Shown one piece after another: positions 6,074 through 59,388 of a DNA stretch of 64,000 nt (positions are counted from its first letter, which is position 1; every line of letters begins with the position of its first letter). Made by a program: the position numbers and the translations under genes. A model generated the notes under the pieces. The model saw only the letters and a program-made list of their open reading frames with translations, did not search any database and was not told the DNA's origin. Source of the stretch: Allomyces arbusculus (Eukaryota > Blastocladiomycota > Blastocladiomycetes > Blastocladiales > Blastocladiaceae); contig JADHYV010000077.1 of assembly GCA_027604705.1 (NCBI GenBank), positions 1 through 64,000 on the forward strand, written 5' to 3'.

Positions 6074-8869
6074 TCACTCGCTAGCGCCGGGCCCGCCCGG
6101 CACCGATCCGCCGGCATTCGCCTTGGACTGAATCACGTCGTCGAGCGACTTGTGCCGCGACAGTTCCGAGAGCACCGTTTCGTCCACGGGCAGCACCGAC
6201 TTGCGGCGGAACCGCGGCGGCGTGATCTTCCCGCCGGGCGCGTCCTGGATCGCCGTGTGCAGGTCGTCGGCCTCGCGGTCTTCGGGCGCGTCGGCGTCTG
6301 GCGACATGGGCAGCGGCGAAATGGCTACATGGGCGGAGGTGAGCGAAAGGTTGGAGGGGAGCGGCGGGGTAGGGCGGTGGGTGGGGTGGGGGGACGTACA
6401 CATGGGCGTGGTCGGCGACGCGTCAAACTCGCCGTGGTGCTTGGCGAAATGCGGGTTGGCTGCCGGCACCTTGATGGCATTGGCTTGCGCCATGTGCTCA
6501 ATCTTGACCCAGGCCTCTTCGCGCTCCTTTTGCTTCTTGCGCTCGCTACGTTGCGGTGAACGCCGGGAGGAGAGTGAGCACGGGCTCGTGCGCGTCGGGG
6601 AGGAGAAGAAAAGGACTTACATCTGGCGCTGCTGCTTGTACTTGTTCGTGCACTCGTCGAACAGTTTGGGACTGATTTCCATGAACAGCTTGAGTGCGTT
6701 GTAGACGAGCCCGTGGATGGTCCTATCCGACGACGACAAGAAGGAGCGAGAACGCAAGTCAACCGACCGAAACGCGCACTACCAACAATAGCGCCGCCAA
6801 GACGTACCGGTTCCAGTGCGACTTGGAGTTGCGGTAGAGCGACGAGAACATGAGCGGCAAGATGACGGCCACGTTCTCCGAGATCAGGTTCACAATATAC
6901 TCGTTGTTCCAGTAATACAGCGCACGCTCGGCCACCTGGAAGTGCTGCGACGAGACGCACTTGGCGATGTGCGTGAAGAGCGGCACCTGCACCTTCTGAA
7001 ACTCGACCGGGTCGATAATGTCGAGGATCTCCTCAATCTCATTCAGGAACATGACTTCCTTGGGCGAGTTCATCTTGGGCCAGAACCGCAGCAGACCGAG
7101 CACGACCTCGGACGTGAGCGACGGATCCTTCTCGAGGAACTGCACGACGCAGTACGCGAGCTGCGGGTGGTAGAGCCCGAGCGACTTGGCTTTGTGCAAC
7201 GGAATCAGGACCTTCGACAGGAACACCTTGTGCTCTTCCTTGAGCGGCACGGCAAACCCGTTGATAATCGACCCGAGAATCTCGAGCAGTTCGGCAATGC
7301 CGTTGTGCTTTTCGTTCTCGTAGACGAAATGGAAAAACACGTGGTTGATGGACCGCCGAATAAACGCACGCAGGTTCAAAAACTTGCCGTAGACGCGGTG
7401 CAGCGTCGTTTTCAGGAAATCGCGCTCGCGCGGGTCCTCCGAGTCGAAGAGGTCGAGCAGCTGCAGGACAAAGTGCTGGTCAATGTACCGCTTGGCGAAC
7501 GTCGGGTTGAAGTCGGGCGACTCGATGAACCGCAAAAAGAACTCGTAGACAATTTGCAGGTGCGGCCAGGCGGCTTCCAACACGGGCTCGTCCTCTTCCG
7601 GATCGAACGCATCGCCCGACGGGTTCACTTGCGGGGGTATTGTGCGGAACAAGTTGCAGGCAAACTGAACAAGGCGGTGCGTGAGGAAGTGGGTGAGTGC
7701 CGGTGCAGGGGGTGGCGCTGGAGTGAGAACACCAGTGGCCGGAAAATTCAGCAACGAACCATCGAGAACACGGCAGGGTATACTTCCTCGGTGATGACGC
7801 CGCGGTTGGTCGTGATGTAGTCGACGAGCTCGGTGAGCGTCACGCGCTTGACTTCCTTGCCCTTGAGGTCGCTCGTCGCGTCCGAAAAATCAAACATGAT
7901 GTGGCACTGCTGCAGCTTGCGCACAAACAGGCCCGTGCGCTCATGCGCGAGCACCTCTAGATGATCGATCGATATGAGCACTTCCGGATCCCATCGATGA
8001 TCACCACCTCCCGCCATCAGTTTCAACGTACCGCGGAAGTTGGGCAACTTCTCAAACTCGACATGCTCGGAGGAATGGAACCTCGATGACCGCTGCCGCT
8101 TGGGCAGTTTCGACACGGGGATCCCATCCTTGCTGGCGTTGCCGGCCTTGAGCCGCGAAATCGGCCCGGCGCGCGGCACGTCCTTTGGCGCCGTCTCCAT
8201 GGGCATCAGGCCACCACCACCACCTGTCGTGGGCGACGCGAGTTTCTGCTGCTGTAGAACGGGACCGGACGCGGACGTGCCGGCAGCCGTATAGAGCGTC
8301 GGGACCGGGTGCGCGGGCGCGCCGGCGTGCCCGAGGGCCACGGTCTTGAGCGAGTTGGTGGTAGGCGACTAGGTCAGTCTCCAGTGTCAGCAATCGTCCG
8401 CACAATGTCGCCCAATTCGCGGTTATGAGGGTAGGTACCTCGAGGTTATTCTTCCCGACGGGCGAGTCGAGGTCGGTCGTAAGCTGCAGTCCAGCCGCGC
8501 GCTTATCCGCGGCAACACCGACAATCCCGGCGACCGATGCGGGCGGGCCAGCGACAACGGCGCCCTTGACAACGGCGGGCGCCGGGTGCGCGAGCGCGCT
8601 CGCGGCCGCGGCCGAGGCCTTGGCGAGCTGTTGCGCGTCGGAAAAGTGCTGCGGCGCGTTACCGACGCTCTTGGCGCTCGTGGGCGACGGCGCGGGCGAA
8701 CTGGATGAGGACGAGGTCGAGTCGGCAGACGAGTTGCTCTTGCTGCGGTACAGCTTGGCGATCGAAAGGGGACGGTCAGTCGGGGGGGGGGGGGGGGAGA
8801 GGGCAAACGCGACGGATCAGGGGAGTTTGATGAATTGGTACTTACGACACGGTTCTTCAGCCCTTTCAT
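6074..8869 (-). CDS. RTS1: PP2A regulatory subunit B56 (B') family
   Basis: Directs protein phosphatase 2A to substrates. About seven exons: 8869-8846, 8753-8439, 8368-7760, 7664-6808, 6722-6621, about 6547-6400 and about 6310-6074, with canonical GT-AG ends and matching phases for introns 1-4. The N-terminus is Ser/Ala-rich and low complexity. The B56 HEAT-repeat core is plain: [95 protein letters not shown], then [10 protein letters not shown]. The exon 5/6 junction does not keep phase with canonical sites; a GC dinucleotide near 6540 is the likely cause. Intron 1 carries a 16-base homopolymer (8782-8797). The last intron is stopless and in frame. Divergent from the gene at 9994. Confidence 0.95.
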
Positions 8870-18105: not shown

Positions 18106-19947
18106 TCACGGCGACGGCACGACCAGACCAAATCGTTCCTTAAGCAGTCGCGCGGCCGCGTCACGTGCGTCTTGCAGAACCGCGAGCGTGCGCTTTTCGT
18201 CGGTAGCCGTCGGCCCCACACGAAGGGCGGCGCTCGCGTCCGTTGCTTCACGGTACGACGGTGGTGGCGTAAGCGACCCAGTCCCATCATCGCTCGACCA
18301 AATACCGTCGTCGCTCGCAGCCGCACTCGCAGCAGCGACCGCAACACGCACTTGACTCGCTTCTAGCTCACTGGCCATGACATGCGGCGGGACAAACTCG
18401 CTCAACCACGCCACCACTTCGCCCGCGCCATCCTCCCTCGCGATCCTCTCCTTCGCCGCGATCGCCGCCGCCTGGTACTTGCCCACTCGGTCCACGAGCA
18501 CCTCCCATACCAATTTCCCCAATTTCCCCGGCGTCAACTTCGTATACCGCACAGGTTTCGGCGCACACCCGAGCTTATGTACGCGGTCCGCCCAGAACGG
18601 CTGGTCGACGGCGCACGGCGTGATGACCGCCGGCACCCCCGCGGCAAGCGCGGCCATGGACGTCCCCGCGCCACCGTGGTGCACGATCACTCGACACAGC
18701 GGGAAAAGGACCGCGTGCGGTTCGGCGGTGACGGGGATCAGGTCGTCGGGCGCGATTTCCGCGAGTCGGGCGAAGGCGGTGCCGTAGGGAGTCGTATCGG
18801 GAGCGATCCCGCCGGCGTAGACGACGAGCCGCGGCGTCGGGGATCCGGCAGCGGCGGAGCGCGAGACGAGGGCCGCGTGCAGGCCGCGAATCAAGGGCAG
18901 GAACGACGGGAGCGCGCAGACGGGCATGCTGCCGAACCCAACGTAGATGATCGGCCGGCGACGGCCGCGGGCGTCGCGTGTGGTCCGACGCAGGAACGCG
19001 GCGAGAGTCGGGGACAAGGTCGCGTGCGCCGACGTGGTACGTGCAGCGGAAGCGGGCGCCTGGTACGTGAGATGTCCCTGGAACGCGGTCGCGTGCGGCG
19101 GCCAGTCGGTCGGGACGCGGCAGAGTGTGGGTGACATGGCAAAGAAGTGCGGCATCTTGCGCAAGTCGCGCCAGTAGGCCCAGAACGATGGCCACATGCG
19201 CACTTGTGCGGTGCGACAGCATCCTTGGATGAGCGAGGCCAGGAACAGCCAAAAGAGCAATTCGCGCACGAGGAACGAGATCCAGTGCAGCCACCCAAAC
19301 ACGAGTGTCGGGCGACCGGCCAGCGGCATCGGGAATTGCGTCGTTGGGTGCACGACCGGGAACGTGGCGAGCGAGACGACGGTCGGTGGTGAACGGCGGC
19401 CCGGCGGGACACGGCGCGCGAGGAGAGCGCCCTGCATGTTGCTCAACACGCCGCAGACGACGAGATCCGCGTCGCGCGTGTGGTCGAGAATCTCATCCAT
19501 CTGCTCGACGAGCGGCGGCGTGAAGCGGCGCATGATGGCAAGGAGAGCGCGCGGGCTGCTGGACAGGAGCGCCGACGCGAAAAACGTGGAAGGCCGCGTG
19601 CTGCTTTCCTCGGGCGCGCGAATCGAGCAGAAGTGGATGCCTTGGTGCTGCGCGATCCATGGCGCAAAGTCGGGCGGGGCCAAGATGGAGATGCGGAGCG
19701 TGCCGGGAACTGCTGCATCACGCAGGGCCAACGCGGCCGCAAGAACGGGTTGCACGTCCCCACGCGAGCCGAGCGCGAGGAACGCGACGTGGTACGGGCT
19801 TGAAGCGCGCGTTGCGGTAGTCGCGCCAGCTCGAACAGTTTCGTCGGCAAGCGTGCGCGATGGGCGTGCCGGGCGGGCAGTCGTCCTCGCGGCGACAGCA
19901 GCCGTTGGCGGCGTGTGCGGCGCTCGAGCGCGGTCGTTCCTCATCAT
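18106..19947 (-). CDS. UDP-glycosyltransferase, GT1 sterol/lipid glucosyltransferase type
   Basis: Single exon of 613 residues. Start chosen at the ATG pair at 19947. The N-terminal Rossmann fold of the Glyco_transf_28 type is marked by FLALGSRGDVQPVLAAALAL. The donor-binding half has IIYVGFGSMPV and the C-terminal signature VHHGGAGTSMAALAAGVPAV followed by DQPFWADRVHKLG. This layout is that of sterol 3-beta-glucosyltransferases and related lipid glycosyltransferases using UDP-sugar. A hydrophobic stretch mid-protein (FLVRELLFWLFLASLI) suggests membrane contact. The Ser/Asp-rich C-terminus looks disordered. Head-to-head with QTRT2, 517 bp apart. Substrate cannot be read from sequence. Confidence 0.9.
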   Translation of the reverse strand: MMRNDRARAPHTPPTAAVAARTTARPARPSRTLADETVRAGATTATRASSPYHVAFLALGSRGDVQPVLAAALALRDAAVPGTLRISILAPPDFAPWIAQHQGIHFCSIRAPEESSTRPSTFFASALLSSSPRALLAIMRRFTPPLVEQMDEILDHTRDADLVVCGVLSNMQGALLARRVPPGRRSPPTVVSLATFPVVHPTTQFPMPLAGRPTLVFGWLHWISFLVRELLFWLFLASLIQGCCRTAQVRMWPSFWAYWRDLRKMPHFFAMSPTLCRVPTDWPPHATAFQGHLTYQAPASAARTTSAHATLSPTLAAFLRRTTRDARGRRRPIIYVGFGSMPVCALPSFLPLIRGLHAALVSRSAAAGSPTPRLVVYAGGIAPDTTPYGTAFARLAEIAPDDLIPVTAEPHAVLFPLCRVIVHHGGAGTSMAALAAGVPAVITPCAVDQPFWADRVHKLGCAPKPVRYTKLTPGKLGKLVWEVLVDRVGKYQAAAIAAKERIAREDGAGEVVAWLSEFVPPHVMASELEASQVRVAVAAASAAASDDGIWSSDDGTGSLTPPPSYREATDASAALRVGPTATDEKRTLAVLQDARDAAARLLKERFGLVVPSP

Positions 19948-20464
19948 GCTCGTCAAGCGCAGCTCGGCGTGCGGCAGGGATCGAACCGGATGGGGAGAGC
20001 GGGGGGAACGGGGACGGGACCTGGAGGCACCACCTCTCCTCTCGCGGTCGGTAGTTCAAGTGCAGCGCTGTGCAACGCAGCACCGCGGCGCGGCGCCGCC
20101 TCGGGGCCAGCAATGCCAAGTTGCCACAACGGCCAGGCACCTGCCCTGGCCGCACCCTGCGCCACACCGAACCGCTGTGAAGCGTCGGCTGCTTGCGGCC
20201 AAGTGAGGTGGACTGGCGTGGTGCGGTGCCACATACGTCGCCGACATCAAATTCGGCCAGAGCGGTGATCACGCCCAACGACGCGACGACACGACCTCCG
20301 CGACGACGACGACGACGTCGACGCTGGCCGCCATGGCATCACGCACCTCGCCGGAAACTTGCTGCAACGAATCAAGCACCAGCACTGCAGCGCCTGCGGG
20401 CCCCTCGAGCGCTATCGACTTGGCATCCTCGACAAGCTCCGATCTCGCGACATTTCCGCCGACC
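19948..20464. promoter_or_regulatory. Shared promoter region of the glycosyltransferase and QTRT2
   Basis: 517 bp between divergent start codons. No TATA box is obvious. The frame upstream of the QTRT2 ATG stays open from 20333, but its text is low-complexity Ser/Thr and I treat it as 5' UTR. Confidence 0.4.
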
Positions 20465-22149
20465 ATGACCTCCATCTCGTTTGCACTCCGCTCCGCCCAA
20501 GGCACATCGCCTCTACGCCGTGGCACCTTGACGCTCACACGGCGCGCAGTCCCTGGCCCGCCTCCTGTGCCCACGCCGGCGCCCATCTCGGCCAAGCGAC
20601 GCGCGAATCCCGAAGCGGGCAACGCCGGCACTCACGACCCAGCACTCGCTGCGGACCCAACAGGCACCCACTTTATCGCGGAACGCGAACGCGCCTTAGC
20701 CTCCCTATCCACGACGATCGAGTGTCCCGCGCTCCTCGTTTCGTCACGCCGCCTGCTCGTGCCGCACCTGACCATGGACGTGCTCGCCACCGTCCTCCCC
20801 AACTCAACCATCGCCGACGTGCCTGTCGAAGCTAGCTTCCGTGACTTGCCCTCGTCCACTTTCCCGGGGACCCTGCGGTCGTTCGCGAATTGGGGCAGCC
20901 AGTTTACGCTGTGGTCGGCGCGCGACGTGGCCGTGCCGTTCCCAACGACCGCGCGCCATGGCAAGGACTTTGTGCAGATGCGGACCGACGCGGGATTGAT
21001 CAAAGTCACGGGCAAGGAGTTTATGGAGGCGGCCGCACGGTGGCGGCCAGATATGGTCGCGGTGCCCGCGCATGTGTTGAATGCCAAGGGATTGTCGAGC
21101 AAGGCGGCGTCGCGCGCAGTGGAGCGTACGGTCGCGATGCTCGATGAGTGCTTGGCGGTGCACGATACGTTATCGGTAAGCGTGGTGTATGTGTGCAGGA
21201 TGTGGAGCCATTGCGACTGATCTCGTTGGTGATCTGTGCGCTAGAACCCCCCACCGGTCCTCGCCACCATCACCGGCACCTCCCCGACTCTCCTCGAATC
21301 CTGCGCCCAAAAAGTGGCCTCGCGCGCCGCCGACAAGGTCGCGGGCTACGTCTTCGACTCTCCCGTCGCCGACCTCACCATTACCGCCGCATCCCTCGCA
21401 CCGACCGCATGGCGGTACGCCGCCAGCTGTTTAACACCCGACGCCATGGTGCGCAATCTGCACGTCGCCGACGCCTTCCCGAGCGCGCTCGCGTACGTGC
21501 TCGCCGGGCACGGGTACGCACTACACGTCGATTGGGCACAGCCCGAAAAGTGTGCGCTGGACCACTTGGTCGATGCCGAGAGGCACCGCACGAGCAAGGC
21601 GCCGCTGCGCGACGGGTGCAGCTGCTGGGCGTGCCAGCGGCATAACCGCGCGTATGTCTACCACTTGCTCGATTGCCACGAGATGCTCGGGTGGACGTTG
21701 CTCACGATGTACGTCTAAGTTCGTTCCTGACGCTGCTTCATGAGGACTCTGACACTCACTTTGTTCGCCGAGCTAGCCACAACCTGCACCAACTCGACCA
21801 CTTCCTCGCTGCGATCCGCACCACAATCGGCACGCTCCCCGCGGCCGAGGTCGAGCAACAACGCTCGCATTTCCTTACCACGTGGGACGCGACCGTCGCG
21901 CCCCAAATGGCCAAGATTCTCGAGTCCATTTGGACTGACCGTGGACGGTCGGCGGCCCCGTCGCTCGATCATGGAAGTATGCCATCGCTTGTCATGGGTA
22001 AGCCCACGGCGGGCTCGGTCAAGCTCGGCACGACCGCAGCAAATGGGGCTGGTGTGGAGAAGGAGACAAAGAAGCGGCCGCGGTCGCCGGGGCGGGGGGC
22101 GGAGGTCGAAGGAGAGAGGCCGGCCAAGAAGCGGCAGGAACAGGAGTAG
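20465..22149 (+). CDS. QTRT2: Queuine tRNA-ribosyltransferase accessory subunit 2
   Basis: Non-catalytic partner of QTRT1 in the enzyme that swaps guanine for queuine at the wobble position of GUN tRNAs. Three exons, 20465-21175, 21245-21708 and 21777-22149, with GT-AG ends and consistent phases (0, 2). The protein has the TGT fold opening (FALRSAQGTSPLRRGTLTL), VPHLTMDVL, and the zinc site DGCSCWACQRHNRAYVYHLL, followed after intron 2 by IHNLHQLDHFLAAIR. The C-terminus adds a disordered, strongly basic tail with KKRPR and RPAKKR clusters, unusual for the family and possibly a nuclear signal. No QTRT1 is in the window. Convergent with the gene at 22324. Confidence 0.92.
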
Positions 22150-29284: not shown

Positions 29285-30216
29285 TTACGCGTGCACCTCC
29301 CAGACGTTGATGTTCGACGAGCCGGAGCTGTGGTAGCCCTCGGTGGCCAGGAACTGGACGCCGAGCGGGCCCAACTTCATGCCATGACTGGCCCAGGCCT
29401 TAAAGTGGTTGCCAATCGTGATCGTGCCCGACGAGCGGCGGTTGCGGCGCACGCTCCAGTACTGCTGGAATTTGCCGCCGGACGGCGACGGGTCCTTGCG
29501 GAAGACCTGGTAAATATCGTACGTGTCGCCATCCGAGACCAAGGTGCCGCGGAACTCGCCCGTGGGGCGGTAGTTGCCCCAGTTATCGGTGATGTAGTAC
29601 TCGACCGACCAGTCCTTGGCCCACCCGTAGACTGACAGGTACCCGTTGCCCTGCGGGCTGAACGTGCCCGAGTACGACACTACGCGTGTGGGCGAACCCG
29701 TCTGCCAGCCTTTACCCGCAACAAAGTTGCTGACGCCATTCCACGACGTCTTGTACTGGCCGTCGGGCCCAACGGAAATGGACGAATGGCCTGGGACGTC
29801 GGCCCAGAACGAGTACCAGAGGCCGCCCTCGTAACCGGACCCGTTCTTGGAAATGGTCTTCCACGCTTGAGCTGCGGAAGTGGGGAACGCGGGCGCCAAC
29901 AAAATCAGGGCCGTCACAACGACGGAAGCCGTGAGAAAAGGGGCAACGATGGCACGGTCATGGTGGGGGCAGGGTGGGGTGGACGTCATCGTTGTCAGCG
30001 AAATGAACGTAATGGGAATAGAGTGGAAGCGAGGGGATGGCCCGAATCGCGGATTGGTGGAATGGACGCGCAGTTTCTGGCGGGGGAACACAAACCTTTG
30101 GCGGCTTGCACTGAGGTCGTCGGGGCCGCGAGCGCCGGGTTCACCAGGGTCGCCACTAACGTGGCGATCGCGAGAAAGAGGGCAGCGGCGACCGTGAAAG
30201 GAGTGCTGGAGTGCAT
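29285..30216 (-). CDS. GH11 endo-1,4-beta-xylanase (complete)
   Basis: Secreted xylan-degrading enzyme. Exon 1 is 30216-30096 with a signal peptide (MHSSTPFTVAAALFLAIATL ... ALA|APTTS). A 224-bp intron joins in phase 1 to exon 2, 29871-29285. The mature jelly-roll has SGYEGGLWYSFWAD, the nucleophile block KDWSVEYYITDNWGNYRPTG, the thumb region around FRKDPSPSGGKFQQYWSVRR, and the acid/base block ATEGYHSSGSSNINVW; both catalytic Glu are present. Length (about 235 residues) is normal. The intron is stopless in the xylanase frame and itself encodes a second hydrophobic leader that could start at an internal ATG near 29991. Paralogue at 1-661. No carbohydrate-binding module. Confidence 0.95.
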
Positions 30217-30775
30217 CGTTGCAGGTGGCGAGGAGGTGCGATGGCAGTCATCGAGGCGAGGGGGACGGCCCAAATTTATAGGAGAGGGCGCACGACGCTC
30301 TGACAGAGGAACGTGCCATGGGAGCGGCGAGCAGCACATGTGTGATCCGGAAATACTTCGAGCCCGCTGATCCGGGTCCCGAAAAACGCCTCGCGCAATC
30401 GGAGATGCGAGGACGACAATTCCCTCAAATTGCACGCTGACACGAAAGGCTTTGCTCAGAGACTCTTGCCGTTCGTGGTGCAAAATCGTTTCATTTTCAT
30501 TACGTTCAGGCTTTGGTCGGCGGCATTGCAGGAAATGGAGGGTTTGTCCGAATGAGCTGCACGTTGCTCGGCACTGCGCTTCTTGCCGATCCGAGACTTT
30601 TCAATTGGGAGACCCCCTGCGTGGATTGTTCTTGTATCTAAGAGGCGTCCGTTTCGCTCTCCTATGCCGAATCTCCTGGGCCCGAATTGGCATGATTGAT
30701 CGAGGGTTTGTGACTTCAGTGGTGACTGGTGTCAGCTGCTATCCATGCACATTCCCCTCGAGCTATGAAATGCGG
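30217..30775. repeat. Duplicated upstream region of the xylanase genes, copy 2
   Basis: Direct-orientation counterpart of 662-1180, best conserved over the first 100 bp upstream of the gene and again near 30485-30510 and 30640-30680. It holds the TATA box of this xylanase. Confidence 0.7.
30274..30280 (-). promoter_or_regulatory. TATA box of xylanase copy 2
   Basis: TATAAAT on the minus strand about 60 nt upstream of the ATG at 30216, within a block conserved with the other xylanase copy. Confidence 0.55.
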
Positions 30776-33348: not shown

Positions 33349-36300
33349 ATGATATCGCTGGCCAACCAACTCGACAACCTTCAACTCGGCGCAACAAACT
33401 TGCGCGCCACGGCCAATGATGGCGATGTTCTCGACCACCTCCCGTCGCCGCAGGATCGTGCCGTCAGCGCCTTTTGCGCTGCCATTTTCCAGGACAAGCG
33501 CATCGCCAAGCAGCTCTTTGCCTCATCGGCCGGACCGTTCAATGGCAGTACCAGTTCCTTGGCTTCGGCCCCCACCCGCGCAAACACGCTCAAGAGCAAG
33601 GATGCGACCACGGCTGCGGTCGACCCGGACACGGTCGCTGACGAGATTCGAAACGTATGATGCACGGAACAGCGGGCAATGGGTGTATTCGGCTTTCGGA
33701 ATCAACAAGACCAATGATCGATATGCATGCTCAGATTGCCTCGTTCTTTGCGGCCATGGACCGACGCGAGCGCTCGTCAAGAACGTCACCAGCAACCCCC
33801 GTCAGCGGTGGTGCGCGGCGCCGCATCCAAACGGCCATCGAGGAATTGCCTATGGCATCGCTCGACCTTCCGCAAGTGTTTGACCTGAGCCCGATTGCTC
33901 TCCACGTCTACACGTACGAGCAAGCAAAGTACGATCGTGTTACTTCGTGCTGATTGCCTCGGTGCCGCTCGCTCATAACACTCACAACACTCGCGCGCAA
34001 TCCTCGGCCACCAGAATCGACCTCATCATCCCGAAAAGCGGTACTCTCTCGGGCCGCGGCGCTGCACAACCGTCGCTCCGCGAGTACCTCGACGAGCTCG
34101 AAGGGCTCGACCTTGATGTGGAGCCCAAGGAAGTGCCCGAGGACCTGTACCGTCCATCAATTCTCGACGTGTTTGAAGTGCCGACCATGGCGTGCGATGC
34201 GTCGGGCCATGTGCAGCTCGCGCGGCGGCGCAACAAGGAGATCACGGACCTGTTCCGCCACACGCACCTGCGCCGGCCGTGCGCCATGCTGCATCTCCTG
34301 AACCACGTGCTCGTCGCCTACCCGCTCCTGCCGCGGCTCAACGATGTGCTCGCATTCGCGCCGCACAAGGCCAACTCGTTCCAGCTGCAATTTGTCGCGT
34401 ACCAGCTTGAGGTGCTTCGCAAGCACTTTGTGCGCATGGGCGCGCACTGGGTCACGTCGGTACTCTTTGATATTGTGCTCAGCCGTTTCCGGTCGCGAAA
34501 CTGACCTGGAGCACCCGCGCAAACCAGGCCAGATTACCGCGACGTCAACGTGACGGACCGGTGGTGGATGGAGTGCCAGCTGCCGATGGTCGGGCTAAGA
34601 ACGGTCGCGAACCGCAGTCAGCAGAGCTTCGTGTTCCGTGGCGATGATGACACGGAGCCCTCGTCTCCGTTCCGCGCGTGGGCGCAGGGCGAGCTCAGCA
34701 ACTACGACTACCTGCTCTACCTGAACCGGCTCGCGGGCCGCACGTGGAACGACCCACACTTCCACCCAATCATGCCGTGGACGACCGATTTCACCATGCA
34801 CTCGCACCTCGACGGGTGGCGCGACCTGGCCAAGACCAAGTTTCGCATGGTCAAGGGCGACGAGCAGCTCGACATGACGTTCCAGAGCGACCCGCCGCAC
34901 CACGTCACAACCTTCTTGACGGACTTGTCCTACTACACCTACAAGGCGCGGCAGTCGCCCAAGGCCGTGCTCGTCCGACACGTGCGCGGGAAATGGGCGC
35001 CCAACGAGTACCCGACCTCGCTCGAGCAGCTCTATCAGTGGACGACCGACGAATGCATTCCGGAATTCTACGCGAGCCCGGACTTGGTCCGGTCGCTGCA
35101 CGAGGACATGGGCGACATGGCGTTGCCGCGGTGGGCCAACTCGCCCGAAGAGTTTATCGTCAAGCATCGCGAAGTGCTCGAGTCGCCACACGTCTCGGCA
35201 CAATTGCACGCGTGGATTGACTTGATGTTTGGGTACCGGCTCACGGGCGCGGCCGCGGTCGACGCCAAGAACGTGGCTCTCCCGCTGTCGCACCCGACGT
35301 CGGCGTTTGTCTCGCCCTTCCACGGGATCCGGCAACTGTTCCGGCACCCGCATCCGCGCAAAATGGTGCTCGCGCGGCCGGGCAACGACTCGGCGTCGGT
35401 GCGGCTCATGCAGGCGTCGGCTGCGCCGGACGTGACGCTGGAAGACTACGAGCGCGTCGCTGCATTCGACGCGCTCTACTTTGCCGCGCCCGCACCACGG
35501 CTCGACCCGGCGCTACCCGCCCCCGTCCACCCGTCATTGCCGCACTTGTACGCGGCGGTGCTCGCGAGCACGCAGGGCCAGCTCGCCGTCTGGCCGTCAG
35601 TTCCGCTGTGCACCGAGGCGTACGAGATCATGCTCAACCATGCGTTGCCGCTGTGCTCGGTCGCGGAGCTCATGGACCGCACGTGGCTCAAGATGGAGCA
35701 GCATGCGTTTGTTGCGTTTTTCGCGCCACGGATCGTGCAGGCGCCGATGGCTGTACCCGTCGCGCTGATTCGCAAGTTTATTGGCGTGAGCGGGTTCTTG
35801 AGTGACGTATGGCCCGCTTACTCGCGGTACTGTCTCGAGAAGTGGGAGGCCGGGTTGATTGCACCGCACCTGGTTGACGTTTGGTACGTCCCTCGCCTTT
35901 ACGACGCGGAATCCATTGCCCACCTTCTAACCGCCGTCAAACTTGCAAAGTGGATTCCTCGGCCCCGCGCACGTGCGCGACAAGGTCCTCCCGCTGCTGA
36001 GTCTCGTCATCAAGCAGGCGTCGCTCGCCGACGTCTTTGTCCAGATCGCGCGGCGGTTCGCGTTTGAGTGCACCGAGTGCCTTCTCCTACCGCACCTTTT
36101 CAAGGAACTGGTCACGACATTCCAAGAGGCGACATTTCACCGCGTCGCCGAGGCTTACCGCGCCGTTTTTGCGTACGCGGCCACGGTCATGGATGAGCAT
36201 GAGACGGTCAAGGCAGTTGCCGATGTGGTGGTCGCGACCAAGGGTCGCCAGCGGCCCATGTTGTTTGGCGTTGCGCTTAAATTAGTCGAGGATCTGTGCC

Positions 36301-42928: not shown

Positions 42929-44343
42929 ATGGGCCAACTGCTCGCCCTGCTCCTGCACCCGTCGGTGCCCGCACCGCCACCGCTTGTCGCCGTCGACCTG
43001 CTCAGTGCGTGTCCGCTGTGTGATCCACCCCTTTCTGCCCCCGCTGCTGGGCCTTCGATCCCTGCATCTGCGTCCATGGCTGATCGCAGGAGACCTCTAC
43101 CTCCACTCTAGACCCCGCCGTCACGCCCGACGAGCAGGAGCTCTTGGTCAATGTCCAGACGGTGCTCGACGAGGCCAGCACCATTTTGCGCGTGCTGAAG
43201 AACTACCATGGATGTGAGGACGTGATTCGCTCGGTACGAGTTCTGCTCCACAGTACTCTGCGCGCTGGATCGGGACACTGACCGCAATCTTCATCCGACC
43301 AGGCCATTTCATCTCCGGGGCAACAAACCGAGTCGGCCGCGTGGGATGCGGTCGTGCCGTGCGTCTTGCAGTTGCGCCAGATTTACGAGTACGCGCTCAA
43401 GATTGGTACGTTCTGCACTTTTGCTACGAGCACCCCAGGGCGCCAAACTGATCCGGATTTCGGGGTTACCAACTTGATTAGAGCAAGTCCTGCCATCGAT
43501 TCTCGAAGTGTTTTGCCGCGCGGGGCCTGACGGCCAAGTGGACGTGCAAAAGAACCTCGAGACCAACCAGGCCACGGCCAAGGCGTTTGCCGATATCGTT
43601 TCGTTTTCGTGGGAGTTTGACGACGTCAAGGTGCGTCGCGCGTCGCTATTTCCCGCCCATTGGCTGGCGCTCCACCGCTTCCGTCCTGGTCCTTGTCCAT
43701 TGCTGACGTGTCACCCCCACCCCTGTCGTTCAGATGAGCAAACCGGCTATCCAAAACGACTTTTCGTACTACCGGCGCACGCTGCAGCGCACGCGCGCGC
43801 TGATCCCCGGGGCGCCCAACGCCACGGGCCCCGGCCCGATCCCGGTCGGCGACGAGCTCGCGAACCGCATGTCGCTGTTTTACGCGTACCCGTCGCCGTT
43901 CCTCAAGTTGATCACGGACACGGTCACGCAGCACGTGAACCAGCACCACGTGCAGGTAGCCGTCGCTAATTATTTGATGCTGATTGCGGGCGTGTGCCAC
44001 AATGCCGTGAACACGCAGTCGTCGGTCCCGGCCTTGTTTGCGCTGCGCGTCATGACGTCGTGCTTGGTCATGTATGACCATATTCATCCGGTCGGACTGT
44101 TCCCGAAGAACTCGGAGGCCAACGTGCGTACTGGAATGCGTTCAAGTGGGTGGAGGCTCGAGACGGACGATGACTGACGCGTAAAGCATGGTGTAGGTGC
44201 GGCTGTTCATTCGTACGATCCAGACACACGGCGGCGCGTCGTCGGCGACGCTGCTCAACTCGCTGCGGTACTCGAGTAAAACGTTCAACAATGCCGACGT
44301 GCCAAAGGCGACCAAAGCGCTGTTTGAAGGGTCGTTGGCGTAA
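42929..44343 (+). CDS. CYRI: CYRI (FAM49) family Rac1 interactor
   Basis: CYRI proteins bind active Rac1 and dampen SCAR/WAVE-driven actin branching. About six exons; the first is 42929-43004 and the second starts at 43112. Motifs in order: MGQLLALLLHP (Gly2 conserved, the myristoylation site in animals), DEQELLVNVQTVLDEASTIL, AAWDAVVPCVLQLRQIYEYA, NQATAKAFADIVSFSWEFDD, MSKPAIQNDFSYYRRTLQR, ELANRMSLFYAYPSPFLKLI, ALRVMTSCLVMYDHIHPVGL, LLNSLRYSSKTFNNADVPKA. Length (about 320) matches the family. Dikarya lack CYRI and SCAR/WAVE, so this points to actin-based motility in an early fungus. Confidence 0.94.
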
Positions 44344-44989: not shown

Positions 44990-46222
44990 ATGTACTCGCT
45001 CGCTCGCCCCCTGACCGCCGTTGCAGCGCGCTCGGTACGGTCAAGCATGCGGTGATGCGTGGATGGGTGAGGGACTGGATGCGCGCTGCGCTGGTTGTGG
45101 AGACGCGCGCCAGGACGACGGCGGCGTGGACGTGGACGACCACGATGCAGCACCGCAAGCCCTGCCGCCATCCCTGCTTTGCTCACCCACGAGCACACCC
45201 ATCGCGACCACCCCCGCTAACCCCGCCCCCTTCCCTCCCACCAGGCCGCCCGCACCTTCGCCTCGGCCGCCGGCACGACCCTCGTCGTTGTCGAGCACAA
45301 GAACGGCGCCCTCCTCCCGGCGACCCTGCACGCCCTTACTGCCGCCAAGCAACTTGGCGGGTCGATCACCGCCGTGATCCCGGCCGCCGACTCTGCGTCG
45401 GCTACCCCCATCGTCGACGCCCTGCAGCAGCACGCGCCGTCGGCGATCCTGGTGGCGACGCACGCGGCGCTCGCCAAGCCCGCCGTGGCCGAGATTGTCG
45501 CCCCGCTTGTCGCCAAGGCCGCCGAGTCCTCGGGCGCGACGCACATTGTCGCGGCGCACTCGAGCTGGGGCAAGAACGTGCTCCCTCGTGTCGCCGCGCT
45601 GCTCGACGTGTCGGCCGTGTCGGACGCGGTCGCGATTTTGGGGGAGGATACCTTCACGCGCCCGATTTTTGCGGGGAATGCGCTGGCCACGGTCAAGGCG
45701 ACCGATAAGGTCAAGGTGGTCACGGTGCGCCCGACGGCGTTTGAGCCGTCGGTCGCGACGGGGGCCGCCGCGGGCGCGCCCGTTTCCGAGATCTCGGCGG
45801 ACGCGGCCACAGCGACCGAGTTTGTTAAGGAAGACATTGTCAAGTCCGACCGCCCCGAACTGGACGCGGCCAAGATCGTGGTCGCCGGTGGCCGCGCGCT
45901 CAAGTCGGCCGAGAACTTCCAGATCCTCTACGACTTGGCCGACAAGTTGGGTAATGCCGCGGTCGGTGCGTCGCGTGCTGCCGTGGATGCGGGCTATGCG
46001 GACAACTCGCTGCAGATTGGCCAGACAGGCAAGGTGATTGCGCCGCAGCTCTACATTGGTGCGGGGATCTCGGGCGCGATTCAGCATTTGGCGGGCATGA
46101 AGGATTCGAAGGTGATTGTCGCGATCAACAAGGACCCGGAGGCGCCGATTTTCGCGGTCGCGGATTACGGGCTCGAGGCCGACTTGTTTGAGGCGGTGCC
46201 GGAGATGACGCAGAAGCTGTAA
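44990..46222 (+). CDS. ETFA: Electron transfer flavoprotein subunit alpha, mitochondrial
   Basis: Carries electrons from acyl-CoA and other dehydrogenases to ETF-QO. Exon 1 (44990-45034) codes only for the start of the presequence (MYSLARPLTAVAARS). A 210-bp intron precedes exon 2 (45245-46222). The alpha/beta N-domain (TTLVVVEHKNGALLPATLHA) is followed by the FAD domain: VVAGGRALKSAENFQILYDL, GASRAAVDAGYADNSLQIGQ, and the signature LYIGAGISGAIQHLAGMKDS KVIVAINKDPEAPIF. Total about 340 residues, as expected. Confidence 0.96.
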
Positions 46223-48486: not shown

Positions 48487-49773
48487 TCACTTCCTCAGCG
48501 TCGGCACGACATTCGGCGGCTTGTTCAACGACGGCACATTACTCGGCGATTTCGCCAGCGTCGGAACCGTCAACGCCGCCGACTTGTTGGCAACAAACGC
48601 CTGTTTCGCGCCTTCCTTGAGCACTTCGCGCCCGAGTTCTGACTGCGCCGCGTCGCGAATCGCTTCCGTGCGGACCGACCGCATCGACATGCCCTTCGAC
48701 CGGTAGTACGAGGTGACTTCCTTGAGGACCCACAGCCCCGCGACGGCCTCGAGTCCAAGACACGCGGCGGAAATCAGACAAAAGACGCCCGAGACGACGT
48801 TGGTGCCGAACATGTCCATGGCGACGATGACGCCGGCACCGCCCCACCCGGGCATCCCAATAGCGAGCACAACCATCGCGCCGAGGTGGAATGCAAAGCT
48901 AGCCAGGCGGGGGTCAGTTGGGAGCACTTGGTGTGGAAACGCGTCGGGTACGTACTTGAAAAAGAAGAAAAAGAAACGCAATGACTTGTCGTCCCGCACG
49001 CCGTCATAGAGCTGCTTGTACCAGAAACTCCACGACACGGGAATCCCAATCGACATGATCAGGAAGGACATGCCGAATTGCGACCCGCCGTTGGCGCCTT
49101 TGGTCACGAGCGTCGTGAAGCACGCGATGCTAATGGAATCAGGGGGGGGGGGGGGGAGTCAATGCGGCGCACCAACCGGTGGAGAGAATCGAGACCACTT
49201 GGTACCAGTTGAAAAAGTAGGTCCAAACGCAAAAAAGCCAGAGGAAATACGCGCGCTTGACTACATCCCATCCTCGACTCGTCAGTCCTGGCGCCTCACA
49301 CGCGTAACACGCCAACAACGTACCGAGCGGCTTCCCGGCGTCCGGAATCTCCTGGTCGATATCATGGTAGACGAGCGGGCGGAATTTCGGGAAATTCGGC
49401 TGCCGACCGAGTAACTCGCCAATCTTGTCTTCTTGCACCCGTAGTTGCGCTTCGCGCGCGGCCAGTTGCTGTTCGCGGCGCTCGAGCTCGTGCATGCGGT
49501 ACCGCAGCGCGGCTTCGGCGGCTGACTAGCATCGAGAGAGTGGGCATGAGGATCAAGGGGAGGGAGAGGAGGGGGGGGGGGGGGACGAGTGAGCTAAGAA
49601 GGTACCTCTGCGGGGGCTTCAGTCGACGCGCCGCCCCATGGGATCGTGTTCTCGACGGCTTGGCCGTAGCCCTACGTGGAGTCGGTGGAACTCGGTCACG
49701 GAAAGACCCCAATAGCAATGGAGTGAGGGCGAAGGACGATACGAACGGCGCCAAATGGGTTCTGCAGGGCCAT
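48487..49773 (-). CDS. SCAMP: Secretory carrier-associated membrane protein
   Basis: Four-helix membrane protein of post-Golgi and recycling vesicles. Exon 1 starts at 49773 with MALQNPFG, containing the NPF motif that binds EH-domain proteins. A later exon gives YGQAVENTIPWGG, then the coiled coil (HELERREQQLAAREAQLRVQ), the conserved PNFPKFRPLVYHDI, and four hydrophobic segments (AYFLWLFCVWTYFFNWYQVV; FLIMSIGIPVSWSFWYKQLY; FAFHLGAMVVLAIG; MFGTNVVSGVFCLISAACLG). The cytosolic loop WYKQLYDGVRDDKSLRFFFF is the SCAMP hallmark. Two introns have C14-15 homopolymers on the coding strand. Head-to-head with the channel gene at 50281. Confidence 0.94.
49142..49156. repeat. G/C homopolymer in a SCAMP intron
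   Basis: About 15 consecutive G on the plus strand, hence C on the coding strand, placed as the pyrimidine tract shortly before the acceptor ccattag. Confidence 0.8.
49571..49584. repeat. G/C homopolymer in another SCAMP intron
   Basis: About 14 consecutive G on the plus strand, C on the coding strand, within the intron upstream of the coiled-coil exon. Confidence 0.8.
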
Positions 49774-50280: not shown

Positions 50281-52825
50281 ATGGCTAATTCTAAGCAACC
50301 CGACCTGGCCGCCGCCCTGCAAGCGCGCTCGAGCGGCCCAAGACCCAACCACTCGATCCTGCGGTCCTCGCTCGAAGTCGAGCTCACCTACCCGGCCTTC
50401 CGCCTGGTATTATCCTCGACTCTTCAAGAATCACCGTCCAACTGCGAGTCCTCCGGCGCTGATTGTCCAACAACGTCATCGTCGTCTAGCCGGGCGTCTT
50501 TGACCGCAAATTCGAGTCCAACTTTCTCTATGCGAATGCCGACTCGTCGGCACCGCGCCACTTCCACCGCGTCTTCTACCAGCACTCGGGCTTCCCGACC
50601 AACCGCAAGTACTCGCTCATTGGCGACAAGTTGGCGTCGGTCGCGGCACGTTACCCGCTGGCCGGATTGGCGGGCGGTAGCGAGGATGGCGCTCGAAGTG
50701 ATGGCGGAGTGGACGAACCCGGGGTGGGAGGGAACGCCGGCGCGAGTCCGTCGCACCAAGCGGGCAGGAAAAGGGGGGTCTCGGACCTGATGCTGATTGG
50801 GATGGGCGGGATTGGCGGGCGCAATGTGCCCGCTGACGATGGCGATAATACGTACGTACTGATTGCTGTTTGTTGCCGGAGGGGCGAGGGCCGGAGCTGA
50901 CGCGACGGGTGGACGTGGATTAGGGACTCGTACTCGATGGTGCGCCGCATCATTTTCGGCAACGCACGAAAGATGGTTTGTCTTGCTGTACCTCCGTTCT
51001 TGCGTTTGTCAATTGCAAGGTAATCCGCCATTGATTCATTCGAACAGAACGTGTCGCGATTGGAGCGCAAGGACGTCAATTTTTCAACGATCGTCGACAT
51101 TGACGACGAGGCGTTTGAAAGCTACGTGACCGACGATCTTGCCGGACGGCTTGGCGAAGGCGATTTTTTCCGACTCGTGATGCTCATGGTCATCATTCTC
51201 AACTCGATCATGATCTCCCTGCAAACCAACACGTTTCTGGTACGGTTGTCGCTTCCGCGAACTCATCGGCCATGCGGGCGCTGATGATGCCTTGGCCTAT
51301 GTTATCCCAGCGACAACGGTACTCGGGCGTGTTTGCGGCCATGGACTCGATATTCCTGTCGATCTTCATCATGGAAGTGCTCTTCAAGTGGTACTACGCG
51401 TTTGTGACGTTTTGGAAGTCGCCATGGAACTGGCTCGACGTAGGCCTGATTGTCGTGGCGCTGCTCGGCCCACGTAAGTCGTCTCTGATTATCCTCTTAC
51501 CCCGCGGGTGACCGGAACTGATTGCTGTCGTGACTAGTGATCACGTTTTCGTCGTCGTCGCGCATTCTCAAGATGCTGCGCATGATCCGCGCGTTCCGAA
51601 GTCTGCGCGGGGTCAGCGCGCTCGCGGGCATGTATACGGTGCTGCAGACCGTGTTTCAAAGTATACCAGGTACGCTGGCATTCCCTGGCACTGCGAATTC
51701 GGGCGCGACACTGACTTGGGCTGCCGGCGGCGTCGCAGATATGCTCAACATCACATTGCTGCTGCTTATTGTCATGTTCATCTTCGCCGTGGTCGGCGTG
51801 ACACTGTTCTCGTCGAGCTACCCGGAACGGTTTGGCGATCTCGGCACGGGCACGCACGCACCTCCAAGGTCTCAGAGCTATTGATTTGGCGTCTGACTGA
51901 ACGGATGTGTTGCACGTAGCCATGATGATGCTGTTCATTCTCGTTTGCCAGGACGGGTGGGTCGGGCTGTTCAACACGATGGAGGTACGCGTTGTTTGCT
52001 TATTCCGCGGACAATCATCTTAGGATGCTAACAACAAGTTTTGCGCACGGTATCGAGTCCCGCGGTCTCTTTGGCACCGCGTCCATCTACTGTGTCATCT
52101 TTATCACGCTCGGCGGGTTCATTTTCCTAAACCTGATCACGGCTGTTGTTGTCAACAACCTGGTGCGCTTCCCCCCCTTTTCTTCTCCCCATCCCGACCC
52201 ACTCGGCAATCTATCTGACTCCTCTCCGTGCACCCCGATTTCAGGAAACGACCTACGACAACATCAAGAAACAAATGCGCCGCAAGTACCGGCAACTCAA
52301 GTCGGCCGTGGGCGGGTCCGGGACGAGCGGGTCCAGCACACAGCGGCCACTGGCAACCGTTGCCGAGGGCGACGCGTCCGTATATCTCGGCCAGATCCCA
52401 TACGAGTTACCGGAATTCGACCGCATCACCGAGTCGAAACTCGAAAAGTACTACTTACTGCTCATGGTGATCGAGGAGAATCTCAAGGAGTACGTGCAGA
52501 TCAAGCAGTCGCTGAACGAGGTACGGTACCGCCCGCGCTGTCCATTCGGCGGGCGCGGATCCTGACAGATGTGAGGTGGCGAGTGGACAGATTTTGCGCG
52601 AGATCAAGGAGATCAATGCGGACCGGGACGACGACGAGGAGGATCTGGATGCGGATCTGGAGGAGGACGAGGAAGAGCCTGATATGGTGCGTGCAGCGGT
52701 TGCCTGGTTTGTCGGATGCAGCGCGATGTGCAGGCGCTCACGATTTCGCTTGCCGTGCTCGTTTTTAGAACGCGGGAGATGCTTTGACTCGACTCATCAA
52801 CCTGCAAAACTCGCGCAATGGGTAA
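50281..52825 (+). CDS. CatSper-type single-domain voltage-gated cation channel
   Basis: Starts MANSKQPDLAAALQARSSG at 50281 and ends after a last small exon (NAGDALTRLINLQNSRNG) at 52825; about a dozen short exons. After a long cytosolic N-terminus come S1 (FFRLVMLMVIILNSIMISLQ), S2 (MDSIFLSIFIMEVLFKWYYA), S3 (PWNWLDVGLIVVALLG), an Arg-rich S4 (RILKMLRMIRAFRSLR), S5 (MLNITLLLLIVMFIFAVVGV), a pore helix and filter ILVCQDGWVGLFNTM, and S6 (FGFIFLNLITAVV-like: GGFIFLNLITAVVVNNL). One six-helix domain with a QDGW-type filter and a C-terminal coiled coil fits CatSper subunits, closest in style to CatSper3/4. These calcium channels serve flagellar motility. The acidic C-terminus (EEDLDADLEEDEEE) is unusual. 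Exact subunit identity is open. Confidence 0.8.
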
Positions 52826-53505: not shown

Positions 53506-55050
53506 ATGCCGCTTGCTCAAATGCCCGACCTGGTCCTGACCGCGCTGGCGTCGTTCCTCGACACCCAGAGCACACCGCGGCCGCAAGGGACTTGCCGTGC
53601 TCTGCACATGTTCCCAGCACCAGTGCAGAAGAATGAACGCTTTCATCTCGCCGTTGCGCTTGCCGATGCACACATGGTCTTTTCATTCCTGCGCCGACGC
53701 AATTTTCCGCTATGCTCTTCGGTGCTGGTTCGCGACGGGCTCCCAAAACGTCGTGCTCTACATGGCGATTAATGCGACCGACTCGGACCTCGTCGCGTGG
53801 TTGCTGCCACAGCATTTCCCTGTCGCAATTCGACATGTGCCCAACAACATCAATGAATGGTTTTGCCTTCTTCATCGTGTTCTGATAGCCCCACGCGGCC
53901 CTGCCCGTGACCGGATTGTAAATGCGCTTGTCGAGCACGTCTATGCTGACCCCAAGAGCTGGCACAAGTGCATGATGCATGTTGGACTGTTGGGATGTAA
54001 GACGAGACCCTGCGGCAGAGCTCACGTGTCACGTCGCCCATCATGGACTTCATTGAACGCTCTGATCATGAATTTGGTTTGGAACAACACGGAAGCACTT
54101 GCAACACAATTGCTTCTACACCATCGGCCCAAGGTCACAGCCAGGTTGAGCTGATTGAATCAGTTGACAAACTTCTGTCTTGGCTGGTCCATTCTTACTT
54201 GCATCGAATCACTGTCCGTTTGGCTCGTGCAGCACCTACCTTTTCTGACCGAGACTTCACGCCGCTTTCATGGTGGACGACGTTGACTCGACAAAATGTG
54301 CAGCTGATACGGCCATCTTCATGCTGTTGCGCGACCACGCCCGGCGCACGACTCTCCTGCCAATGTCTCTGCCGGGCTGACGTGTCTGCTCGCAGCTGTA
54401 CATGGAGACGCTGGAGCCGTGTTGCACTTACTTTGTGATGACGCAAGGTCGCTCAGTGGGATGTGCGCCCTGCCATTCATCGCAGCCATGTACGGTCATA
54501 TCAAAAGTGCACAGAGGCTCATGCCTGAGATCTTTGATTTTTCGATCAAGTCGCGGTGGCAAGGGGCCTGTGATGATGTAAAGAGGTCCCTCAATGACAC
54601 TGCGATGTTGCAGTTCCTAGTGCCCCAGCGACCCATCAACCCACTGCGCGTAAACGGAATCGTTCGACAGACAGTATGCTGGATCGGTGGCCGTCATGGC
54701 CTCCGTTCTTCAGCATGTCTCGCAACTCGACATTCTGGGTCGTTTGAATGATCTTTTCTTGCGCCTTGGGCCAAGCAATCTTAGGCTGTAGAAGCGAAGC
54801 CGAACTCGAGGAGCATATGGTCCCATGCCTGATTTATATCTTACGCACTGCCGGACTGACCCAGAGTGGCATTGGCGATTGGCCGCTGGTGGATACGCTC
54901 CATACCTCAAGTCTTGGTTTGGAACGGTCTTTTATGGCTGTCCAAGTCCTGCGTTATTGCGTGTTGCTCTTTCGCACTGGCATATCGCGTGCGTCGTTTG
55001 GAACAAAATCCCTCCGGCTTGCTGGAGGGGTTGTCAAGGGTGATGGAAAT
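53506..55050 (+). pseudogene. F-box/ankyrin-type gene relic, copy B
   Basis: ATG at 53506: MPLAQMPDLVLTALASFLDT then QGTCRALHMFPAP (F-box-like) and an ankyrin-like ADAHMVFSFLRRRNFPL. The frame shifts near 53740 to NVVLYMAINATDSDLVAWLL and continues to about 54000. Further shifts lead to TCLLAAVHGDAGAVLHLLCD and LPFIAAMYGHIKSAQRLMPE (ankyrin helices, about 54380-54530), and on to about 55045. Paralogue of the relic at 32479-33061. Confidence 0.6.
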
Positions 55051-57201: not shown

Positions 57202-59388
57202 ATGCCTGCAGCGACCATTGGCCTGGCGTCGGCGACCAGTCGGGCCATGAGCCCGGCCCGCACGCTCGCACCCGCCGGCACTGTCCCCGCCGTCCTGCGC
57301 CGCTGGCAGGCCACGACGCTCGCCGTGCTGATTGCCATGTACACTGGCTACTACTGCTGCCGCACCGACTTTTCCGTGGCGCTGCCGGCGATCCTTAAGG
57401 CGACACACATCTCGAAGGGCGCGTTTGGCGCCGTCATTTCGTACGGGTATGCGTTTTACGCCTTTGGTACCGCATCTTTCTCGCTCCTGCTCGCCGCGAA
57501 GATTGGGTAAATTGCGAAAACTAATCATTGCGCACGCTATCCACCGCGGTTCCGTAGGCAAAATCGTCAACGGCCTGCTGATTGACCGGTTCGGCGGCCG
57601 GCAGCTCATTTTCCTATGCCTCTTCGGGTCGATTTTGTGCACGATTGGACTCGGTGCCGTCTCCGACGAGAACGCGACCGTCGCGCATTTCACGTGGCTG
57701 TGGAGCGCGAACCGCATCTTCCAGAGCGGCGGGTGGCCGGCATTGACCACAATCATTCGGACGTGGTTCCCGCCTATGGAGCACGGGAAAGCCATGGGGA
57801 TTGCGTCGCTGTCCTACTCCCTCGGCGATGCCGGAATTCGACTGTTTTTCGGCAAGGTCATGTCGGCGGGCTTGTCGTGGCAGCGCCTGTTCTTTCTCGC
57901 TGCCGTGTGCGGACTCTTGCTCTTGATTCCATCCTTGTATTTGTTGCACAGGTGCGTGATCTCGGGTTTGTCGTTTCGATGTCCTTACCGTGCCATTTGT
58001 GCTGCTGACACGCTTTTCTCGTGCATAGTTCGCCCACCGACTTGGGCCTGCCGTCTGTGGCCAAATTAGACACTGATATCCCGCTCGTCGCGACCACCAC
58101 GCGACGCGGCCGCACGACGCGCGTTGCGCCCAGCACGCTGCGCAACCGCAGCAAGAGCCGCAGCCCAACGCGTCGACCCGCATCCACGTTGCGCAGCCCG
58201 AGCCCTGGCCACGGCACAAGCGCGTTCCTCGATCGTTCGCCCTCTCCCGTAACAGACCGCGACTTACTCAAGGCCCCGCGGCCGTGGTGGCGGTGCTGGG
58301 GTCCATCGTTCTCGTCGCCATCGCTCCTGACGCAACCCAAGTACATTCTCCTGCTGCTGCAATCGCCGCTCTTCACGTGGATCCGCGAAGTTTTCAACTC
58401 GTGGGCGATTGTCTACCTCGCCGAAGCGTTCAATCTCGATGACGGCCACGCGTCTGTCGTCTCGCTCGGCCTCCCACTGCTCTCGGCCCTCGCCTCGGTC
58501 GGCGGTGGATTCCTCGTCGACAACGTCGCGCGCAACCGCCGCGGTTTTCTCTACTTTTCGCTCGTGCTCGGCACCACGCTCGTCCTGTCCGTGTTTGCCC
58601 TGTTCGCATCGACCCATGGCCACTCGGGGATGCACGTGCCCGCGAGCGCGACGGCCCCAGCCGCGGCCGAAACGCCCGAGGCCGATCCAAAATTGGGCCA
58701 CGCGCATGTCGCGCCAGTGGCTCCACCCGTGCCGGGTCTCGCCACAGCAGTCCTTCTCATGTCGCTCTCGTCGCTCTTCTCGACGGCACCCGCATCTTGG
58801 GCGGAGGGACTGTTCCCGCTCGAACTCGCGAGCGCATCGAACGCCGGGATCGCCGTGGCCGCAGTGCACAGTGCGGGCTATGTGGGCGCGATTCTGGCAG
58901 GACAGTTTGTGGGCACTGTCGTCGAGGCAAAGGGGTGGCCTGCGCTGTTCGTGCTCATGAGCGGCGCGTCGCTGTTGAATACGGCGTTGGCCGCGATGTA
59001 CTGGTCGGTCGACCACGCTGCGCTCGTACGGTCGAGTAGTGCTGTGGCTGGGATCGATACGATCGCGAATGGTGGTGGTGGGGTGAGCGCGCGGCGGTTG
59101 ATTGCGTTGGCGGCGGCGCGGGGTGCGAAGCGTGGGACAGCCGAGTATGTGGGGGTGCCGGCGCAAGATGAGGATGAAGATGAGGACGAGGATCGCGATG
59201 CAGGCGACGACTTGCCGATGCGCGCGCCGTCACGACGAGGACGTGACCGAAACGATAGCGATGTGGACGAGGCCGAGGATGAGGCTGAGGGCGGGCGATC
59301 AAGCGCGCTCGCGAACCGACCGCTCATGGCCGCCACGGCCTCAACCTCGGTGTTGCGATCGTCCTCGCCACAGCTGAAGTGCAGCTGA
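57202..59388 (+). CDS. MFS transporter, organophosphate:phosphate antiporter (SLC37/GlpT-like) type
   Basis: Three exons: 57202-57466, 57558-57951, 58029-59388, phases 1 and 2 matching. The N-half reads WQATTLAVLIAMYTGYYCCR, DFSVALPAIL, FGAVISYGYAFYAFGKIVNG, LLIDRFGGRQLIFLCLFGSI, the helix1-to-loop2 pattern of the OPA family (GlpT, UhpT, SLC37), including the CR near the phosphate site. Then NRIFQSGGWPALTTIIRTWF and SWQRLFFLAAVCGLLLLIPS. A long Arg/Ser-rich cytosolic loop (RSKSRSPTRRPAST) separates the two halves. The C-half has REVFNSWAIVYLAEAF and AGYVGAILAGQFVG. The tail is acidic (EDEDEDEDRD). Substrate (sugar phosphate, glycerol phosphate) is inferred. Confidence 0.85.

Follow-up and report, generated by a model that had tools for sequence, protein, structure and literature searches.

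A predicted CatSper4 pore subunit and its channel partners in the genome of a zoosporic fungus

We present a gene of a zoosporic fungus that very probably encodes CatSper4, one of the pore subunits that make up a heteromeric CatSper channel. The gene lies on the forward strand at 50281..52825 of the window, that is, the whole stretch of 64,000 nucleotides that was analysed. Its product is a CatSper4 orthologue as judged from similarity scores, a shared C-terminal tail and reciprocity of the searches rather than from a tree. The same genome is predicted to encode CatSper1 (three copies), CatSper2 and CatSper3 together with beta, gamma and epsilon/delta-type subunits. Flagellated fungi are already known to have CatSper; the present case comes with two unusual details of the pore subunits and one testable link to zoospore phototaxis.

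The gene consists of 12 exons that join into one open frame of 578 residues, from the ATG at 50281 to a sole stop codon ending at 52825, with coordinates exact to the base. There are 11 introns of 64–83 bases, ten with GT-AG boundaries and one with GC-AG boundaries. The GC-AG intron (51850-51919), which the frame requires, sits in the pore loop. Searches with the gene used a 579-residue version, which differs from the 578-residue model by one extra residue in the N-terminal region; for this longer version, the GC content at third codon positions is 0.775 versus 0.57 in the introns, and Pfam finds a single Ion_trans stretch at residues 221-442 (E 4.7e-38), with a weaker overlapping PKD_channel match inside it. 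A preliminary description, made from the sequence alone, had claimed a single six-helix domain, an arginine-rich S4, a CQDGW filter, a coiled-coil tail and a very acidic C-terminus, and each of these holds in the spliced model: the Ion_trans stretch is the only one, S4 (RILKMLRMIRAFRSLR) carries six R/K residues, the filter is encoded at 51946-51960, the helix that follows S6 and aligns with CatSper4 occupies residues 502-536, and D and E account for 17 of the final 42 residues. The acidic C-terminus falls outside the part aligned with mouse CatSper4, and a lineage-specific origin is therefore possible. The features of the gene are as follows.

50281..52825, + strand: predicted CatSper4 gene, whole coding span (12 exons, 578 aa; Ion_trans; CatSper4 matches)
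50281..50406, + strand: exon 1, N-terminal region (spliced model)
50490..50851, + strand: exon 2, N-terminal region (spliced model)
50924..50975, + strand: exon 3 (spliced model)
51048..51239, + strand: exon 4, pre-S1 and S1 (spliced model, mouse alignment)
51311..51473, + strand: exon 5, S2-S3 (spliced model, mouse alignment)
51538..51669, + strand: exon 6, S4 and S4-S5 linker (spliced model, mouse alignment)
51561..51608, + strand: S4 voltage sensor RILKMLRMIRAFRSLR, six basic residues (sequence; mouse comparison)
51739..51849, + strand: exon 7, S5, followed by the GC-AG intron 51850-51919 (spliced model)
51920..51984, + strand: exon 8, pore helix and filter (spliced model)
51946..51960, + strand: selectivity filter CQDGW, TQDGW in mouse CatSper4 (sequence; alignment)
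52058..52162, + strand: exon 9, S6 (spliced model)
52245..52520, + strand: exon 10, cytoplasmic tail with most of the conserved tail helix (alignment, spliced model)
52440..52614, + strand: C-terminal helix (coiled coil) common to CatSper4, split by the intron 52521-52590 (alignment)
52591..52686, + strand: exon 11, end of the tail helix and acidic run (spliced model)
52627..52677, + strand: acidic run DDDEEDLDADLEEDEEE (sequence)
52769..52825, + strand: exon 12, C-terminus and stop (spliced model)

Among the best 60 of 143 PDB matches to the gene product, mouse CatSper4 is the top single-domain match, scoring 170 bits over a single stretch (query residues 205-543, mouse residues 53-389) at 33% identity. 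Lower in the same best 60 are CatSper3 (92-93 bits), the bacterial Nav channel 4bgn (90.8 bits) and CatSper1 (87 bits), and CatSper2 is absent from them. Four-domain Cav and Nav chains in this set total up to 197 bits, above the 170 of CatSper4 and with Cav3 at the top, because the scores of their repeats are added; the best single four-domain repeat among the matches listed reaches 63 bits. With the query limited to the segment from S5 to the C-terminus, CatSper4 ranks first at 105.2 bits, followed by Cav3.2 with 98.7 bits summed over six pieces, and the CatSper4 alignment spans the filter, S6 and the tail helix up to mouse residue 389. In the reverse search, the mouse CatSper4 stretch was compared with gene models and six-frame pieces of at least 25 residues from 20 loci. 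The window gene came first with 99.8 bits, ahead of the CatSper1 copies (55.7, 46.8 and 35.8), CatSper3 (34.8) and CatSper2 (26.9). In a tree of 14 rows, which included a complete and a partial reference from mouse, the window gene is nearest by path to mouse CatSper4 (1.88 versus at least 2.27), with no supported fork. The CatSper pore-subunit identity proposed in the preliminary description is thus supported by the CatSper4 score, the tail match and the first place in the reverse search. Relatives of the gene were also sought in viral contigs, where 370 pattern matches yielded none that was confirmed.

The higher summed scores made a four-domain channel a candidate identity; the scores of single stretches, the alignment of the tail and the reverse search led to its being dropped. 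A fragment of a four-domain Cav/Cch1 channel, or a two-pore channel (TPC), would share the Ion_trans superfamily with the window gene, and Cav3 does have the highest summed score among the matches listed, but the ATG-to-stop frame holds one Ion_trans stretch, TPC1 scores 45.6 bits against 105.2 for CatSper4 from S5 to the tail, and the mouse CatSper4 query finds at most 20.3 bits in the four-domain pieces tested (loci L028 and L029); we regard this explanation as extremely improbable. Slightly more credence, though still very little, is due to a one-domain sodium or calcium channel of the NaChBac or EukCat type, forming a homotetramer and merely resembling CatSper. Bacterial channels score up to 90.8 bits, near CatSper1 and CatSper3 (best 60 of 143), whereas CatSper4 scores 170 bits in a match that takes in the C-terminal helix, before which the bacterial matches listed end, and the genome also has further CatSper subunits, auxiliary as well as pore-forming; on the side of one-domain rivals the comparison covered bacterial channels. 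Judged by score, the affinity check suggested beforehand, against bacterial sodium channels, TPC and the four-domain pieces tested, sides with CatSper4.

The genome contains 40 Ion_trans matches, two of which fall in the window gene. We examined 19 Ion_trans regions and the beta locus, 20 loci in all, and seven of the 20 contain pieces similar to the core of the window gene at E < 1, namely two four-domain channels (L028 and L029) and five genes spliced by hand. Twelve of the 19 Ion_trans loci had no similarity to the core at E < 1 in a single-frame comparison. A second four-domain gene, on contig C14, is known as locus L002 and from rows of the Ion_trans table. The preliminary description had called for a search for three partner alpha subunits, and putative CatSper1, CatSper2 and CatSper3 genes were recovered. 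L013 (C156) matches CatSper2 with 150-152 bits, compared with 52-54 for CatSper3 at that locus. L026 (C139) matches CatSper3 with 146 bits, tail included, and joins mouse CatSper3 at 92/92 in the 14-row tree. L017 (C34) matches CatSper1 with 147-148 bits. Two further genes, L020 (C23) and L015 (C69), are 49% and 52% identical to L017, and the three copies are mutually 41-52% identical; the assignment of L020 and L015 to the CatSper1 type is based on this identity, on the TLDDW filter and most intron places that they share with L017, and on their grouping with it at 99/99 in the tree. In the PDB searches with CatSper2, CatSper3 and CatSper1, summed four-domain chains again stand above the CatSper chain.

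The auxiliary subunits named for the same search were found in three kinds. A beta gene on C7 matches CATSPERB_C (PF15149) at 5.1e-28, improving to 1.2e-46 after splicing. A gamma gene on C75 matches CATSPERG_C (PF22846) at 5.0e-21 and mouse gamma 2 at 5.8e-19. An epsilon/delta-type gene on C15 matches CATSPERD-E_C (PF22850) at 9.8e-12, and its spliced end scores 79 bits with epsilon and 65 with delta. The CATSPERD and CATSPERG beta-propeller profiles have no match in the genome, a null that does not show absence. The models of L013, L015, L027, L033 and L034 are incomplete at an end. According to the portion of PMC5362262 available to us, epsilon dates back as far as CatSper1-4, beta and gamma do, delta arose later, and zeta is found in mammals only; the single epsilon-like gene fits these ages of epsilon and delta.

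The selectivity filters of the predicted fungal subunits are TLDDW in all three CatSper1 copies, TLDNW in CatSper2, TSSGW in CatSper3 and CQDGW in CatSper4. Mouse CatSper1 and CatSper2 each have a filter aspartate, and the mouse CatSper3 and CatSper4 filters (TVDGW and TQDGW) have one as well. An aspartate in all four fungal pore subunits was not found, the exception being TSSGW of CatSper3 (L026, C139). This filter spans an intron boundary, and both of its serines are the first codons past an intron in a predicted splice. The TSSGW filter lowers the case for a mouse-like pore and leaves the CatSper membership of the window gene intact. Compared with the consensus [T]xDxW given for CatSper pore subunits in the accessible text of PMC5558725, CQDGW retains the aspartate and tryptophan and replaces threonine by cysteine. 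The S4 segment of the window gene presents R, K, R, R, R and R at regular spacing. In hand-chosen stretches of 25-30 residues, S4 of CatSper3 contains five R/K residues, that of CatSper2 six and that of each CatSper1 eight, so that all four kinds of pore subunit in this genome have a well-charged S4. The charged S4 segments and the three-aspartate filter are natural variants on which the determinants of voltage dependence and calcium selectivity could be tested.

The preliminary description also placed CEP44 beside the gene. This was not borne out by Pfam in 30 ORFs of the window, none of which matched CEP44, although an exon-by-exon reading of this kind could overlook it. On the left the nearest recognised gene is SCAMP, and on the right it is an ORF with weak ankyrin similarity:

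43478-44174, + strand: CYRI Rac1-binding domain, left (Pfam)
45221-46219, + strand: electron transfer flavoprotein alpha, left (Pfam)
48490-49525, - strand: SCAMP, left neighbour (Pfam)
54308-54748, + strand: ankyrin-like ORF, right, below the Pfam cut-off (weak Pfam match)
57332-59385, + strand: MFS transporter, right (Pfam)

Elsewhere the window contains a PP2A B56 subunit (6762-7889, -), glycosyltransferase family 28-type domains (18109-20055, -), a queuine tRNA-ribosyltransferase domain (20207-21217, +), a glycosyl hydrolase family 11 domain (29288-30247, -; E 4.5e-60) and a BEACH domain (34505-36064, +).

What this analysis establishes is how the gene is built, its orthology as judged by score and reciprocity, and the presence of the partner genes. 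In the mouse complex, one copy each of CatSper1-4 makes up the pore and beta, gamma and epsilon-type subunits lie outside the membrane; the channel admits calcium in the flagellum, which changes the beat. By orthology, the fungal CatSper1, 2, 3 and 4 would assemble into one four-subunit pore, capped outside the membrane by the beta, gamma and epsilon/delta-type subunits. Such a channel would be situated in the membrane of the zoospore or gamete flagellum and would open upon a change in voltage, perhaps also in pH, and the entering calcium may alter the flagellar beat and thereby steer the cell. A different fate of the gene would be retention for another use, for example as a non-flagellar calcium channel, with the flagellar role lost. 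The CatSper3 partner has no filter aspartate, which leaves room for such a change of use, but CatSper1-4 and three auxiliary kinds are retained together with frames open wherever modelled, and we consider a non-flagellar use unlikely and a CatSper4 subunit of a heteromeric channel the preferred reading.

A flagellated, fungus-like source, as had been proposed from the sequence, agrees with two markers that very probably identify the genome as that of a zoosporic fungus. One is a LYS2-type aminoadipate reductase on C2, found as three adjacent pieces on the same strand (855.6, 603.2 and 63.8 bits), none of which passes the cut-off of 1,030.1 singly while their sum is 1,522.6. The other consists of two rhodopsin-guanylate cyclase fusions, with a type I rhodopsin followed by the cyclase, at C7:515350-516887 (backed by reading frames) and C15:369892-371433; fusions of this kind are reported from Blastocladiomycota, Sanchytriomycota and Chytridiomycota in the part of PMC9616733 that we consulted. 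As to the phylum of the present genome, Blastocladiomycota is a tentative guess. The CatSper beta gene is located ~53 kb from the fusion on C7, and the epsilon-type gene ~190 kb from that on C15.

In the accessible portion of Avelar et al. (PMC4046227), cGMP is proposed to open a potassium-selective GYGD CNG channel in zoospores, possibly with voltage-activated calcium channels acting next, in the manner of Arbacia sperm; the pore signature given there for BeCNG1 is GYGD. When a threonine was required before GYG, a regular-expression search matched only channels read as Kv-type; with this requirement lifted it matched two CNG-type genes, at C26:181411-182795 and C35:166190-164880 (-), which contain Ion_trans, GYGD and a cyclic-nucleotide domain in this order. 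Since the cyclase fusions, the GYGD CNG genes and the CatSper set co-occur in one genome, CatSper becomes a concrete candidate for the calcium channel that the model leaves unnamed, and we hypothesize that it fills this place in the published scheme of zoospore phototaxis. The four-domain channels of the genome (C14 and C37) are rivals for the calcium step. A more ambitious proposal, possible though rather doubtful in our estimate, is that fungal zoospore vision has its missing calcium channel in CatSper, with a sperm-steering cascade common to animals and fungi and with a fungal pore that is more voltage-sensitive and has three filter aspartates. Among the exchanger places found in the genome there was no evidence of a sperm-type sodium/proton exchanger with a cyclic-nucleotide domain; the only place with such a domain within a few kb, on C19, was read as an exchanger and a separate CNG-like gene. 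Should CatSper act in zoospore phototaxis or chemotaxis, the sperm steering cascade would predate animals.

CatSper subunits have been listed among proteins specific to flagellated fungi, with retention that is not universal (PMC13358043, Sci Rep 2026), and the Allomyces macrogynus genome was searched for CatSper by Chung 2017 (PMC5362262), both as stated in the portions available. Fungal CatSper thus being in print, the window gene adds a member to a known kind. In other zoosporic organisms, an oomycete review (PMC4820453) mentions multiple CatSper homologues in two oomycete genomes, and the annotated calcium channels in the accessible part of a Phytophthora zoospore proteome (PMC12223298) include no CatSper2-like protein. 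We found no paper on a role of CatSper in fungal zoospore phototaxis in the part of the open-access literature that was examined. The available text of PMC5362262 describes CatSper as having no functional heterologous expression. Most work on CatSper concerns sperm, and a fungus that swims freely and has the core subunits provides a system apart from animal reproduction.

Compared with known channels, the predicted fungal CatSper4 agrees with mouse CatSper4 (7eeb chain D; 9ubw chain D) in its single domain, with an alignment that runs from S1 as far as the C-terminal helix, and in the filter core QDGW, whose first residue is cysteine in the fungus and threonine in mouse. It differs in its longer N-terminal region and in the 42-residue end with 17 acidic residues. 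At the aligned S4 positions mouse CatSper4 has A, Y, R, R, H and M, that is, two arginines against six R/K in the fungus. This charge excess and the aspartate-free CatSper3 filter, TSSGW compared with TVDGW in mouse, are the two unusual, less expected details. Bacterial one-domain Nav channels (4bgn, 5hvx) have the same six-helix fold, S4 and pore loop as the window gene, but their matches score 87-91 bits versus 170 for CatSper4 and stop short of the CatSper4 tail helix (best 60 of 143). The published CatSper genes of flagellated fungi are of one kind with the window gene and come from organisms of a similar kind; the reports, in the portions of PMC13358043 and PMC5362262 at hand, concern presence and absence and give no details of filter or S4 for fungal subunits. 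In relation to the solved sperm complex (7eeb, 9ubw), CatSper1-4, beta, gamma and the epsilon/delta type all have predicted counterparts in the fungal genome, which unlike the sperm complex has three CatSper1-type genes, and in which one epsilon/delta-type gene was found where the sperm complex contains both epsilon and delta.
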